The translations under genes and the position numbers were made by a program. Under the pieces are notes generated by a model. It saw nothing but the letters and a program-made list of their open reading frames with translations, had not been told where the DNA came from and made no database searches. A stretch of 33,508 nucleotides of DNA from an uncultured cyanobacterium (lineage in GTDB: Bacteria; Cyanobacteriota; Cyanobacteriia; PCC-6307; Cyanobiaceae), in the NCBI GenBank assembly GCA_903823115.1, contig CAIJRN010000032.1, positions 1 through 33,508 of the forward strand, given 5' to 3'. This document shows positions 19,757 through 24,064 of the stretch, piece after piece (the stretch's first letter is position 1; each line of letters begins with the position of its first letter).

Positions 19757-20305
19757 ATGCTGTCCGGACCTTTCTCCGCTTCATCCCCGAGTCGCATCAA
19801 GCTCGACAGCAATCTGCGCCGCTGGTTTTCGCGCAATCTCGGGCTGTGGCGCTCCCGCCGCCTCTACTTCTTCTCTGATGAGGAGCCGATGCGGGTGGAC
19901 ATGTTCCTGCGGGTCGAGAGCTTCAGTGAGCCGGTCGAGGGGGATGCGGCTTACCTCTTCACTTGGTGGCCGGAGAAGGAGTACGACTTCTTCGAGAAGA
20001 AGCCCGGCTTCGCACGCGAGGGCACGATGAAGGCCTATCTCTGTGGTCACCAGCTGCGCCGCAGCCAGAGCAATCTGTTCGCCTTTCCCTGCAAAAGTCA
20101 GATCCGCCAGGTGGATGAGCACGAACTGGTGTTTGAAACTCACCACCAGGAATGGGACGTGCTGGAGCACATCCGGCTGGTGGACCAGGATCGCTACCGC
20201 TCGCGCTCGATCTATTCCTGGTGCAACGGTGAGCTGGAGCTGGCGGAGGTGCACCACGAAATCCGGGCCGAAGGGCCTGGTGCGCCGCTGCAGGAACCGT
20301 CCTGA
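19757..20305 (+). CDS. Conserved cyanobacterial protein, possibly CpcS/CpeS-like
   Basis: A 182-residue soluble protein rich in aromatic and charged residues (RRLYFFSDEEP, LFTWWPEKEYDFFEKKP, DQDRYRSRSIYSWCNG, AEVHHEIRA). Alternating strands, the NLGLWRSRRLYF opening, the VDEHELVFETH segment and the closing EIR resemble the calycin-type S/U bilin lyases and their relatives. That reading comes from pattern memory only and is tentative. If right it would act on a tetrapyrrole or lipid-like ligand. The ATG at 19757 is chosen because the frame upstream is the antisense of sasA. It is divergent from sasA with a 142-base gap that probably holds both promoters. Confidence 0.7.
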   Translation: MLSGPFSASSPSRIKLDSNLRRWFSRNLGLWRSRRLYFFSDEEPMRVDMFLRVESFSEPVEGDAAYLFTWWPEKEYDFFEKKPGFAREGTMKAYLCGHQLRRSQSNLFAFPCKSQIRQVDEHELVFETHHQEWDVLEHIRLVDQDRYRSRSIYSWCNGELELAEVHHEIRAEGPGAPLQEPS

Positions 20306-20370
20306 AAGGGGCAGGGGGGACGGGCAGAGCTGCCGCCCATGCGAGAACATGGCGTTGTCCGGATCCCACC

Positions 20371-20802
20371 TTGCTCTTGGCTTCCCTGTCTCGCCGCACC
20401 AGGGCCCTCCTGGCGGCTCCTCTGCTGGTCATGCCCCTGCTGCTGGCCCCCGCTGCAGCCCTTGCCGCTCCAGCCACCCCTGCGGAGATGAATCTCTACA
20501 CCCGCATTGCCGCCGTCAACGCCTGCATCTCCCGCTCGGCGGGCATCGACTTCGACAAGGCGGTGGGCATCGCCGGCGAAACCATCGCCCAGTTGATCCT
20601 CGGCCAGCATCAGGGCCTGATCCAGCAGGTCGGCGCCAAGCCACTCACCCTTGAGGAGCTGCGCAAAGGATCGATCAACTCCGCCGTGATCGGCGCCTAT
20701 GAAATCTGCCCCAAGCAGGTGCCGCCTGAGGTGGCTAAAAAGGTCCAGGAGGCCTTGAGTAAGAAACCAGCTCAACCACCGGCTCCTCCCGCCACCAAGT
20801 AG
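20371..20802 (+). CDS. Small secreted protein, function unknown
   Basis: A 143-residue protein with an N-terminal signal peptide (a positively charged start, then LLAAPLLVMPLLLAPAAALAAPA, cleavage probably after ALA at about 32). A helical mature part follows (MNLYTRIAAVNACISRSAGIDFDKAVGIAGETIAQ) with a Pro-rich tail. Two cysteines remain in the mature part and could form a disulfide. The start is a TTG at 20371 or 20377; the nearby ATG at 20349 is out of frame. I recognise it as a type conserved in picocyanobacteria but assign no function. It ends 12 bases before pepN and probably shares its transcript. Confidence 0.75.
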   Translation: MLLASLSRRTRALLAAPLLVMPLLLAPAAALAAPATPAEMNLYTRIAAVNACISRSAGIDFDKAVGIAGETIAQLILGQHQGLIQQVGAKPLTLEELRKGSINSAVIGAYEICPKQVPPEVAKKVQEALSKKPAQPPAPPATK

Positions 20803-20814
20803 AGCGTCTCTCCC

Positions 20815-23619
20815 ATGGCCGTCGTGCGTCTCTCTGACTACCGGCCGGCGGCCTATCTGCTGGAGCGCACCGACCTGACGGTGCGCCTCTTCGCAGACCA
20901 TGCCCAGGTGTCGGCGCGGCTGGCCTTCGTTCCCAACCCCGCCGCCTCCGGCCCCGACGCCCGCCTGGCTCCGGGGCCGCTGGAGCTCCAAGGGGTGGAT
21001 CTGGAGCTGCAGGCCCTGTCTCTGGACGGGGCTCCCCTGCCTGCGGCTGGCTTCAGTCTCAGCCCCGATGGCCTGGTGATTCACCAGCCGCCTGAGGGGC
21101 CGTTTGTGCTCAACAGTGAGGTACGGATCAATCCGTACAGCAACACCGCGCTTGAGGGGCTCTATGCCAGTGGTGGCATGGTCACCACCCAGTGCGAGGC
21201 GGAGGGCTTCCGGCGCATCACCTTCCACCCGGACCGGCCCGATCTGCTCAGTCGCTTCCGCGTGCGCATCGAGGCTGATCGCCGGCCCTTCCCGGTGTTG
21301 CTCTGCAACGGCAACTGTCTGGAAACCGGTGAGCTGGAGCCCGATGGCGACTCCGCCTCCGGTGCCGCTGCCTCCGGTGCCCCTGCCTCCGGTGCCGCTG
21401 CCCAGCCGGCGCGCCATTACGCCGTCTGGGACGATCCCTTCCCCAAGCCCTCCTACCTGTTCGCCCTGGTGGCGGGTCGATTGGAGGAGGTGAGCGACAG
21501 CTTCACCACGGCCAGTGGCCGGCAGGTGAAGCTGCGCATCCATGTGGAACCAGGCGATCGGGCCTACACCGCCCATGCGATGGCCTCGCTGAAGCGCAGC
21601 ATGGCCTGGGATGAACGGGTCTATGGCCTGGAATACGATCTCGATGAATTTAATATCGTCGCCGTGCGCCATTTCAATATGGGCGCCATGGAGAACAAGA
21701 GCCTCAATATCTTCAACTCCAAGCTGGTGCTCGCCGATGCGGCCACCGCCACTGACGGCGAGCTGGAGCGGATCGAGAGTGTGATTGCCCATGAATATTT
21801 TCACAATTGGACCGGCAATCGCATCACCTGTCGCGATTGGTTTCAGCTCTCGCTCAAGGAGGGATTGACGGTTTTTCGGGATCAATGTTTCAGCGCTGAT
21901 CTGCACGGCCAGTCGTTGAATCGGATTGAGAATGTGGCGATGTTGCGCAATACGCAGTTTCGCGAGGATGCGGGGCCTACGGCCCATCCAGTGCAGCCGG
22001 ATCAGTATCAGGCTATTGATAACTTCTATACCACCACCATCTATGAAAAGGGTTCGGAACTGATTCGCATGCTCCACACCCTGCTGGGTGAGGAAACCTT
22101 TTTCAGGGGCATGGCGCTGTATGTGAAACGCCATGACGGCACCGCCGCCACCTGTGATGAGTTCCTCGAGGCGATGCGGGAGGCGGCCGAAGCCAGCTGG
22201 GCAGCCCGGGGCCTCGATGGCAGGTTGTCGCCACCTCCCTTTGACTTTGCCGAATTCCGCCGCTGGTACCACCAGGCCGGCACGCCGGTCCTGCAGGTGC
22301 AGCGTCACTGGGATGGCCAGGCCGGAGTCCTGGAGCTCACCATCCGTCAGAGCACCCCTGCCACCCCCGGCCAGAGCCTCAAGCAACCCCTGGTGATTCC
22401 CCTGGCCATCGGCCTGGTCGGCCAGGCCGGCGAGGCCCTGCCCCTGCGCCTGACGAGCGAGGCCGGCGGCCATCGCCACCTGCCCCTGTTGCCCTCGGGC
22501 TGGGGGGGCGGCAGCCGGTTGCTGGTGCTGGATCGGGCCGAGCATCACCTGCGTTTCGAGGGCCTCCCCCCCCATCCCCATCCGCCGGCCCTGTCGCTGC
22601 TGCGCCATTTCTCGGCGCCGGTGAAGCTGGAGATGGGCCGGCCCACCAGCGAACTGGTGCATCTCTTTGCCTGTGACAGCGACCCCTTCGCCCGCTGGGA
22701 TGCCGGCCAGACCCTGCTGCGTCAGGCGGTGCTGGCCAGGGTGATCAGCTCGGAAGAGGCACCGGGCGATCCCCACCTCAAGCAGCTCGATGAGCAGTTG
22801 ATCGAGGCCTGTGGTCGCATCCTGGCCGATCCCAGCCTGTCGGAGTCCAGCCGTTGTGCCCTGATGGCCCTGCCCGGATTGGCGGAGCTGGAGGACGCCA
22901 TGGCCGAGCCCGATCCGCCGGCGCTGTTCCTGGCGCTGCGCAGCCTGGAGCTTCGTTTTGGCAGCGCCCTGGCCGAGCCGCTGCAGGCGGCCCTGGAGCG
23001 CTGCACCCCCCAGTGGCCCCTGGCCTGGCCGGAGGGCCTGGGCGATCGCATGCTCACCGGTCTGATCTGGAGCTGGCGGGCGGCGGCGGGGGATCCGGCG
23101 GCGATCGCCTCAGCCCGGGCCGCGGTTGACGGTGGTTCGATGACCCTGGCCCGTGCCGGTCTGCGGGCCCTGCAGAACCAGCAGGGTGTGGCGCGCGCTG
23201 AGGCGATGGCGGCGTTCTACCAGCGCTGGCAGGACAAACCGGTGATCCTCGATGCCTGGTTTGCCCTGGAGGCCGCAGCCCCGTTCAGCGATGGACTCGA
23301 GCGGGTGGCCCAGTTGCTGGCTCATCCGCGTTTTGATCCCAATGCCCCCAATTCGGTGCGGGCGGTGCTGGGCGGTCTGGCCGGTAACCCGCTTGTCTTC
23401 CACGCGGCCGATGGCCGCGGCTATCGCTTCATGGCCGAGCAGATCGCCTGGCTCGATGGCCGCAATCCGATCACCGCCTCCCGCCTGGCCAAGGTGTTCA
23501 GCCGCTGGCGCAGCTATGGATCTCAGCGAAGCCAGGCCATGCATGGGGCCCTCGAGCAGCTGGCCGCTGCCCAGCTTTCCACCAACACCCGCGAGGTGGT
23601 GGAGCAGTGCCTGGGCTGA
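20815..23619 (+). CDS. pepN: Aminopeptidase N (M1 family)
   Basis: A 934-residue zinc aminopeptidase that removes N-terminal residues from peptides in the cytoplasm. The exopeptidase signature GAMEN is at 290-294. The zinc site HEYFH is at 326-330, with the third ligand Glu349 in LKEGL, and the length and order match the bacterial PepN type with its C-terminal ARM-like half. A Ser-Gly-Ala insert at about 181-195 is coded by three 15-bp tandem units. The DNA from about 21640 to 22090, over the active site, is far less GC-rich than the rest of the gene (about 51% by hand count for 21781-22080) and uses many T-ending codons. All catalytic residues are present, so the gene looks functional. Confidence 0.96.
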   Translation: MAVVRLSDYRPAAYLLERTDLTVRLFADHAQVSARLAFVPNPAASGPDARLAPGPLELQGVDLELQALSLDGAPLPAAGFSLSPDGLVIHQPPEGPFVLNSEVRINPYSNTALEGLYASGGMVTTQCEAEGFRRITFHPDRPDLLSRFRVRIEADRRPFPVLLCNGNCLETGELEPDGDSASGAAASGAPASGAAAQPARHYAVWDDPFPKPSYLFALVAGRLEEVSDSFTTASGRQVKLRIHVEPGDRAYTAHAMASLKRSMAWDERVYGLEYDLDEFNIVAVRHFNMGAMENKSLNIFNSKLVLADAATATDGELERIESVIAHEYFHNWTGNRITCRDWFQLSLKEGLTVFRDQCFSADLHGQSLNRIENVAMLRNTQFREDAGPTAHPVQPDQYQAIDNFYTTTIYEKGSELIRMLHTLLGEETFFRGMALYVKRHDGTAATCDEFLEAMREAAEASWAARGLDGRLSPPPFDFAEFRRWYHQAGTPVLQVQRHWDGQAGVLELTIRQSTPATPGQSLKQPLVIPLAIGLVGQAGEALPLRLTSEAGGHRHLPLLPSGWGGGSRLLVLDRAEHHLRFEGLPPHPHPPALSLLRHFSAPVKLEMGRPTSELVHLFACDSDPFARWDAGQTLLRQAVLARVISSEEAPGDPHLKQLDEQLIEACGRILADPSLSESSRCALMALPGLAELEDAMAEPDPPALFLALRSLELRFGSALAEPLQAALERCTPQWPLAWPEGLGDRMLTGLIWSWRAAAGDPAAIASARAAVDGGSMTLARAGLRALQNQQGVARAEAMAAFYQRWQDKPVILDAWFALEAAAPFSDGLERVAQLLAHPRFDPNAPNSVRAVLGGLAGNPLVFHAADGRGYRFMAEQIAWLDGRNPITASRLAKVFSRWRSYGSQRSQAMHGALEQLAAAQLSTNTREVVEQCLG
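21355..21399 (+). repeat. Three 15-bp tandem units inside pepN
   Basis: GCCTCCGGTGCCGCT occurs three times head to tail, the middle copy with one change (CCCCT). Each copy codes Ala-Ser-Gly-Ala-Ala/Pro, so copy-number change would not shift the frame. It sits in a loop between conserved parts of the N-terminal domain. Confidence 0.9.
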
Positions 23620-23689
23620 GCCCCAGGGAGCCTGGCTTTGCAATGCTGCAGAACGCAGCACCATGCCGTCATGGCCAGAATCGATACAG

Positions 23690-24064
23690 ATGCATTCCTG
23701 GCAAACAGATTCATTGCTAAAAACCCCTCTTCGCTTGGTTCGGCTCCTGCTGGTTGGGGGGTTGCTCGCCTTGGGCCATGGGTTGATGCCCCTGGCAGCC
23801 CTGGCCGAGGCGGCAGTGCCGCCCTCCCGGCTTCGCCCCGGCTGGGGCTTTGACTGGCGCCATCCGGATCGCTCCAGCTGCCGGGAGATCACGCCGGCGG
23901 TGCTGCCCTATTGCTCCCGCTGCCGAGAGGTGCCCAATGCCTACGACAGCGGCATCGATGCCCAGTCCTGTTATCTGGTGCCGAAATTTGAATACATGAT
24001 CTTTCCCACCGCCGAGGGCTGTGAAACAGGGCTGGGAAAATTCAAGGCCAATGGTGGCCACTGA
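23690..24064 (+). CDS. Small secreted cysteine-rich protein, function unknown
   Basis: A 124-residue protein from the ATG at 23690; an ATG at 23663 would add nine residues. The N terminus is a signal peptide (LLVGGLLALGHGLMPLAALA, cleavage likely near AEA). The mature part of about 80 residues has five cysteines, including YCSRC (a CxxC), and aromatic stretches (WGFDWRHPD, YLVPKFEYMIF). The spacing suggests disulfides or metal binding in the periplasm or lumen. I do not recognise a family. It follows pepN by 70 bases and converges with the GH10-like gene five bases from its stop. The upstream frame overlapping pepN is an out-of-frame shadow. Confidence 0.7.
   Translation: MHSWQTDSLLKTPLRLVRLLLVGGLLALGHGLMPLAALAEAAVPPSRLRPGWGFDWRHPDRSSCREITPAVLPYCSRCREVPNAYDSGIDAQSCYLVPKFEYMIFPTAEGCETGLGKFKANGGH

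Follow-up and report, generated by a model that had tools for sequence, protein, structure and literature searches.

The window analysed here, a contig of 33,508 nucleotides (CAIJRN010000032.1) from an uncultured cyanobacterium of the family Cyanobiaceae, carries a gene for a predicted aminopeptidase N, pepN, in which a block of low GC content lies over the catalytic core. The dip is very probably the mark that a strongly conserved stretch of protein leaves on the base composition of a GC-rich gene. A foreign patch is neither supported nor needed, and the dip is overall ordinary, with only a small effect of codon choice left over. A protein-level cause is indicated because about two thirds of the drop lies in codon positions 1 and 2, and the drop hence follows the amino acids of the M1 active site. 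The gene and its relevant parts are the following.

20815 to 23619, forward strand: pepN, predicted aminopeptidase N of 934 amino acids, assigned from TIGR02414, the Pfam M1 domains and identity to the E. coli protein
21577 to 22191, forward strand: Pfam Peptidase_M1 domain (PF01433, E 1.3e-53), residues 255-459, which contains the block
21637 to 22089, forward strand: low-GC block, residues 275-425, GC 0.530 as compared with 0.692 in the rest of the gene
21682 to 21696, forward strand: GAMEN motif, residues 290-294, read from the translation, with 5/5 residues invariant in 7 family members
21790 to 21804, forward strand: HEYFH (HEXXH), residues 326-330, read from the translation, with H326, E327 and H330 invariant in 7 family members
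21859 to 21861, forward strand: Glu349, 18 residues past HEXXH, read from the translation and invariant in 7 family members

The predicted protein scores 1054.7 bits with TIGR02414 (pepN_proteo; curated cut-off 718.2), residues 8-932 covering positions 1-867 of the 868 in the model, and the Pfam M1 domains follow one another in order along the gene. It also matches E. coli K-12 PepN (PDB 2DQ6) over the whole length, with 41% identity and the M1 motifs in place. Residues 290-294 we take to be the motif known in M1 enzymes as GAMEN; HEYFH is presumably the zinc-binding HEXXH and Glu349, by its spacing, presumably the third zinc ligand. The PepN pattern GAMEN plus HEXXH-(18)-E is thus present in the predicted protein. 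Tyr410 aligns with Tyr381 of E. coli, as counted on the pairwise alignment.

The low-GC patch that the original prediction had placed at about 21640-22090 is real. In 300-base windows, GC falls from 0.687 (21300-21599) to 0.530 (21600-21899) and 0.527 (21800-22099), and recovers to 0.667 (22100-22399) and 0.733 (22300-22599); of all 453-base stretches in the window, 21618-22070 is lowest, with GC 0.523. GC at codon positions 1 and 2 (GC12) is 0.460 in the block and 0.627 in the rest of pepN, and GC at position 3 (GC3) is 0.669 and 0.821, respectively. The total drop of 0.162 is composed of 0.111 from positions 1 and 2 (~69%) and 0.051 from position 3 (31%). The original prediction had pointed to codon endings and to the position of the block over GAMEN and the zinc motif; codon endings supply only the minor share, and the extra loss of GC3 peaks at residues 316-435 rather than at GAMEN. 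The T-ending codons named in support are indeed frequent for Asp (GAT 9/10 in the block and 24/40 elsewhere in the gene), Asn (AAT 8/11 and 4/12) and Phe (TTT 5/9 and 8/30), and also for Tyr (TAT 4/4 and 6/14), while CAT, which had been listed with them, is not enriched (3/6 in the block and 13/21 elsewhere in the gene).

The block is also a strongly conserved part of the protein. Amino-acid identity between the window gene (L001) and its sister (L002) is 1.000 in the block and 0.935 outside; between L001 and L009 it is 0.967 and 0.723. Conserved windows are generally lower in GC12 in the window's own genome (r -0.37, 761 windows). The M1 catalytic core contains many residues with codons that have A or T at positions 1 and 2, and on the preferred explanation these residues cannot give way to Ala, Gly, Pro and Arg in the manner of the variable parts of the protein in this high-GC lineage. 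Across genomes the block hardly changes in composition, whereas the rest of the gene tracks genomic GC. Of the share of position 3, a small part comes from the amino-acid make-up and most from a lowered GC3 common to most sampled family members.

The relatives show the pattern to be expected from such a fixed core. From 95 extracted loci, 88 family sequences including the window gene were aligned, after removal of five distant M1 enzymes (L099-L103) and the truncated L104 and L105. The set is non-random, being composed of best matches and hand-picked weaker ones, and its members are not independent, a limitation that counting by genus (18 genera) only partly offsets. The block lies below the rest of the gene in GC in 83/88 sequences, in GC12 in 83/88 and in GC3 in 77/88. 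Where the rest-of-gene GC exceeds 0.6, the block is lower in all 74 of 74 sequences (mean difference -0.132), and the genus averages are negative in 18/18. At a rest-of-gene GC of 0.4-0.6 it is lower in 5/5, and below 0.4 in 4/9; in the five most AT-rich family members (L091-L095) the block is richer in GC than the rest. Of 12 named Synechococcus/Prochlorococcus records, the seven richest in AT show the same reversal; together with 69 non-cyanobacterial genes, mostly from Proteobacteria, these 12 make up a set of 81 PepN genes. Low GC12 over the same block is shared by 68/69 of the non-cyanobacterial genes, total GC being lower in 61/69, and block GC12 shifts there by 0.22 per unit of rest-of-gene GC12. 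The dip is shallower in the high-GC non-cyanobacterial genes (mean -0.044, 39 genes), because GC3 takes no part in it there. The pepN block shows cleanly how a conserved active-site segment of a high-GC genome can pass for foreign DNA of low GC; the lesson is to separate codon positions and to check relatives before recombination is called.

Several results weigh against this explanation, and part of them come from a genome control that covers 0.71 Mb of the window's own genome (3.42 Mb) together with the window, and 0.8 Mb of a second genome (G022, 3.34 Mb). The control retained 109/200 orthologue pairs after removal of overlapping shadow open reading frames (ORFs), and 4 genes were then removed as probable non-genes. 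Not one of 1373 overlapping 151-codon windows from 104 other orthologue-supported genes of the own genome is as low in GC as the block, and pepN has the largest GC drop among the 31 genes of at least 400 codons. The fraction of shared-residue codons that differ between L001 and L002 is 0.331 in the block, compared with 0.214 upstream of it and 0.159 downstream. In 8/28 close clade pairs, the block does not surpass both of its flanks in synonymous divergence. Finally, a remainder in GC3 is explained neither by amino acids nor by neighbouring bases or general conservation. We also note that 0.5% of the 1373 windows are as low in GC12, and that across the 706,701 sampled bases, in which spacers and islands are counted too, 7.3% of 13,778 windows of 453 bases are as low in total GC.

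The remainder is a minor curiosity and the sole part of the dip that merits a further look. Its minimum within the gene is placed as follows.

21760 to 22119, forward strand: lowest amino-acid-corrected GC3 in pepN, residues 316-435, 30-codon windows at -0.08 to -0.20

Corrected for amino acids, GC3 of the block has z -4.41 relative to the rest of the gene and z -4.24 relative to the 104 own-genome genes, or -5.40 when neighbouring bases are included. Own-genome windows equally low in corrected GC3 amount to 2.3%, or 1.2% with neighbouring bases (n=1368). A 151-codon window with z <= -4.41 occurs in 7/31 genes of at least 400 codons, pepN included, and some of the others look like non-genes or island genes; when only genes with 60% or more identity to their orthologue are counted, the share of equally low windows is 0.76% (n=924), and three genes besides pepN contain them. 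In the family, corrected GC3 is below expectation in 75/88 sequences, with z below -2 in 46/88, and in 16/18 genus averages. Averaged over 68 genomes the deficit spans residues ~301-435; per site it is -0.062 in the family as compared with -0.136 in L001, about half the strength, and is spread over many amino acids, with 22/147 sites below -0.2. A few members show a clear excess (L111, z +3.11; L025, +2.18), and only 3/12 of the Synechococcus/Prochlorococcus records lie below expectation while 9/12 do not. In contrast to the window gene and most of the family, block GC3 is below expectation in 6/69 non-cyanobacterial genes, not below it in 63/69, and above z 2 in 17/69. Lopez et al. 2020 (PMC7374057) report that in prokaryotes codon use is not the same in conserved as in variable parts of genes; relative to what they describe, the conserved block of pepN is opposite, with fewer C-ending codons and a lower GC3. 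Among the titles listed in literature searches, none concerned this pepN block.

Neighbouring bases were rejected as the cause of the remainder, since the deficit grows once they are modelled, and general conservation was rejected likewise, since conserved windows of the own genome are slightly higher in GC3 (r +0.14, 761 windows). Codon preference was assessed against a ribosomal-protein reference (24 E. coli proteins queried, 21 found, rpoA and secY excluded, 19 used). The block codons of L001 are opposed to those of the 19 genes (r -0.58), and the likeness score is -0.158 in the block as compared with -0.062 and -0.078 on its two sides. Translational accuracy was thereby rejected for the window gene, as the codons of the block are those avoided in ribosomal-protein genes, and preferred codons are not enriched. 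The codon shift of the family as a whole shows no correlation with the preference of these genes (r -0.10). We infer that the remainder stems from a weaker bias in GC3 and codon use in this segment, since synonymous divergence is mostly higher in the block, exceeding both flanks in 20/28 close clade pairs, and its codons are non-preferred. Low bias together with fast synonymous change is better explained by weakened bias than by the constraint on the coding strand that the original prediction had offered as its second explanation; the part of that suggestion that stands is constraint as such, acting mainly on the protein, and a local cause at the level of DNA, mRNA or translation could apply to the smaller GC3 remainder alone. 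As an observation on the control itself, a single stretch (L126, G000:C14:60001-80000) holds 5 of the 7 control ORFs lowest in amino-acid-corrected GC3; it may be an island whose codon use is foreign, or else a region where the wrong frames were chosen.

If selection maintained slow, non-preferred codons across the catalytic core, perhaps as a means of pacing co-translational folding, this would account for a deficit seen in 75/88 family sequences and, on average, 16/18 genera, and for block codons that run against the 19 ribosomal-protein genes in L001. Such selection is nevertheless improbable, as the family-wide shift bears no relation to ribosomal-protein preference, the deficit is missing or reversed in some relatives (L111, L025 and nine of the Synechococcus/Prochlorococcus records), synonymous sites in the block change fast, and the same domain shows the opposite in Proteobacteria. 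The more specific proposal, that much of Cyanobiaceae and not Proteobacteria holds the pepN catalytic core at lowered GC3 as a lineage-specific, selected slow-codon segment, is likewise improbable; in this clade the segment would consist of codons avoided by highly expressed genes, despite the fast synonymous change. If the third-position remainder were selected, it would offer a handle on translation pacing in picocyanobacteria.

It is barely credible that the low GC3 serves an overlapping element, be it an antisense gene, an RNA structure or an internal promoter. An antisense ORF of 854 amino acids does run over the block (20212-22776, reverse strand). It has no Pfam or NCBIfam match, its frame is stopped within the block in 28/68 genomes and in 4/8 members of the clade of the window gene, and it is probably a by-product of high GC. 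Folding gives a similar picture. In 4/9 relatives tested, the block is less structured than it would be with rest-of-gene codons (z above 2), as a lower GC3 would give, while none of the nine is looser than within-block shuffles, and the L001 block itself is not less structured than expected (z -0.72; -1.63 relative to within-block shuffles). No Rfam match at gathering level was found within pepN, and no sigma-70-like site at 20600-23800.

The preferred explanation of the dip as the footprint of a conserved protein segment has to be set against the original proposal of a recombination patch, in which a tract from a lower-GC relative replaced residues ~275-425 in this lineage. In a recombination mosaic of a housekeeping gene, base composition and pairwise divergence change locally; the change in composition in pepN is, in contrast, family-wide, and a donor would have to belong to the same clade. 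The raised divergence between L001 and L002 in the block would fit a replaced tract, as would a cluster of changes on the L001 side.

21802 to 22059, forward strand: cluster of synonymous differences assigned to L001 relative to its sister, residues 330-415, 20 changes, from a scan test

The scan places 24 L001-side changes in a 130-codon window where the null mean is 14.5, a value reached in 0/2000 shuffles, though the shuffles assume equal rates among sites; the L002-side changes show no such clustering (p 0.09). Of the 20 clustered states, however, 13 are found in other members of the clade, and 4 of the 14 strictly private third-position states of L001 in the gene lie in the block.

Trees and searches for a donor bear on the same proposal. 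In nucleotide trees of 68 sequences, the block groups L001 with L002 (support 97/88) within an eight-member clade (98/97), and the rest of the gene recovers the identical pair and clade with 100/100 each. By the approximately unbiased (AU) test, the block rejects the tree of the rest of the gene, a result in favour of a replaced tract. Six 151-codon segments, two of which overlap by 28 codons, were compared with the tree of their complement, and all six reject it in the 68-row set, the block with a deficit of 148 log units and the five others with 116-205. In a 12-row set, 4/6 reject it, the block included (p 0.017), with a deficit of 14.0 as compared with 4.7-58.7 in the other segments. The conflict is thus spread along pepN, with the block within the normal range, and arises from exchange among relatives or from the weakness of short alignments and fast tree building. 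When single groupings were tested on the block, the AU test had no power: the grouping of L001 with the low-GC L030 and L115 was not rejected (p 0.305).

No match to the block core closer than those of the eight-member clade was found outside it among 400 family genomes, 311 of which gave a match. The five nearest matches all fall in the clade, the best at 88% (G016) and the sister (G011) also at 88%, and for the whole block the best DNA match among 42 genus genomes, at 90%, is again from the same clade. Phage and plasmid collections gave 3 and 50 matching records, all of only 60-80% identity. With the dip present in all 8 clade members as in every high-GC family sequence, with the same sister and clade in both trees and with the nearest DNA (88-90%) from within the clade, transfer from a lower-GC relative is very unlikely. 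The dip in relatives together with congruent trees, which the original prediction had named as the finding that would speak for constraint and not transfer, is largely what was obtained, with the limit that most segments show some conflict. Among the phage-filed records, MW462191.1 and CAKLQF020000030.1 / CAKLQH020000029.1 hold genes annotated as aminopeptidase N with 68-70% DNA identity to the block, and are either phage-borne peptidases or misfiled bacterial contigs.

A milder form of recombination, the exchange of pepN pieces among close relatives of the clade, would shuffle the synonymous sites of the block and not its composition. Pairwise synonymous divergence among the pepN genes of L001-L005 and L096-L098 jumps along the gene in a pair-dependent manner: it is 0.11 at residues 1-60 and 0.45 at 361-420 between L001 and L096, and 0.04 at 661-720 between L001 and L002. 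These jumps look like mosaic exchange among close relatives, and the rejection of the complement tree by six of six segments in the larger set and four of six in the smaller one points the same way, although short alignments and quick tree searches can produce such rejections too. We regard such exchange as a serious possibility, a little short of an even chance. It fails to explain the dip itself, because all eight members of the clade carry it, and the conserved protein segment remains the preferred cause of the low GC.

Some further observations concern the history of the gene. The nearest named record by pepN is Synechococcus sp. BO 8801 (73%), and the relatives are Synechococcus and Prochlorococcus, so that the source is probably a picocyanobacterium of Cyanobium type and the family compared here probably Cyanobiaceae. 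Matches in Proteobacteria reach 42-47% identity to the window pepN. In other families of the same class (23 genomes, 20/23 matching), M1 matches reach at best 24-34% identity, over part of the gene. As judged from these sequence comparisons, the whole pepN of Cyanobiaceae may be an old transfer from Proteobacteria. We also note a second, broken pepN-like copy in G022 (L104, G022:C1:315240-315981), ~48 kb from the intact gene, which is 70% identical over residues 1-254, contains one in-frame TGA and retains a short piece at residues 399-425.
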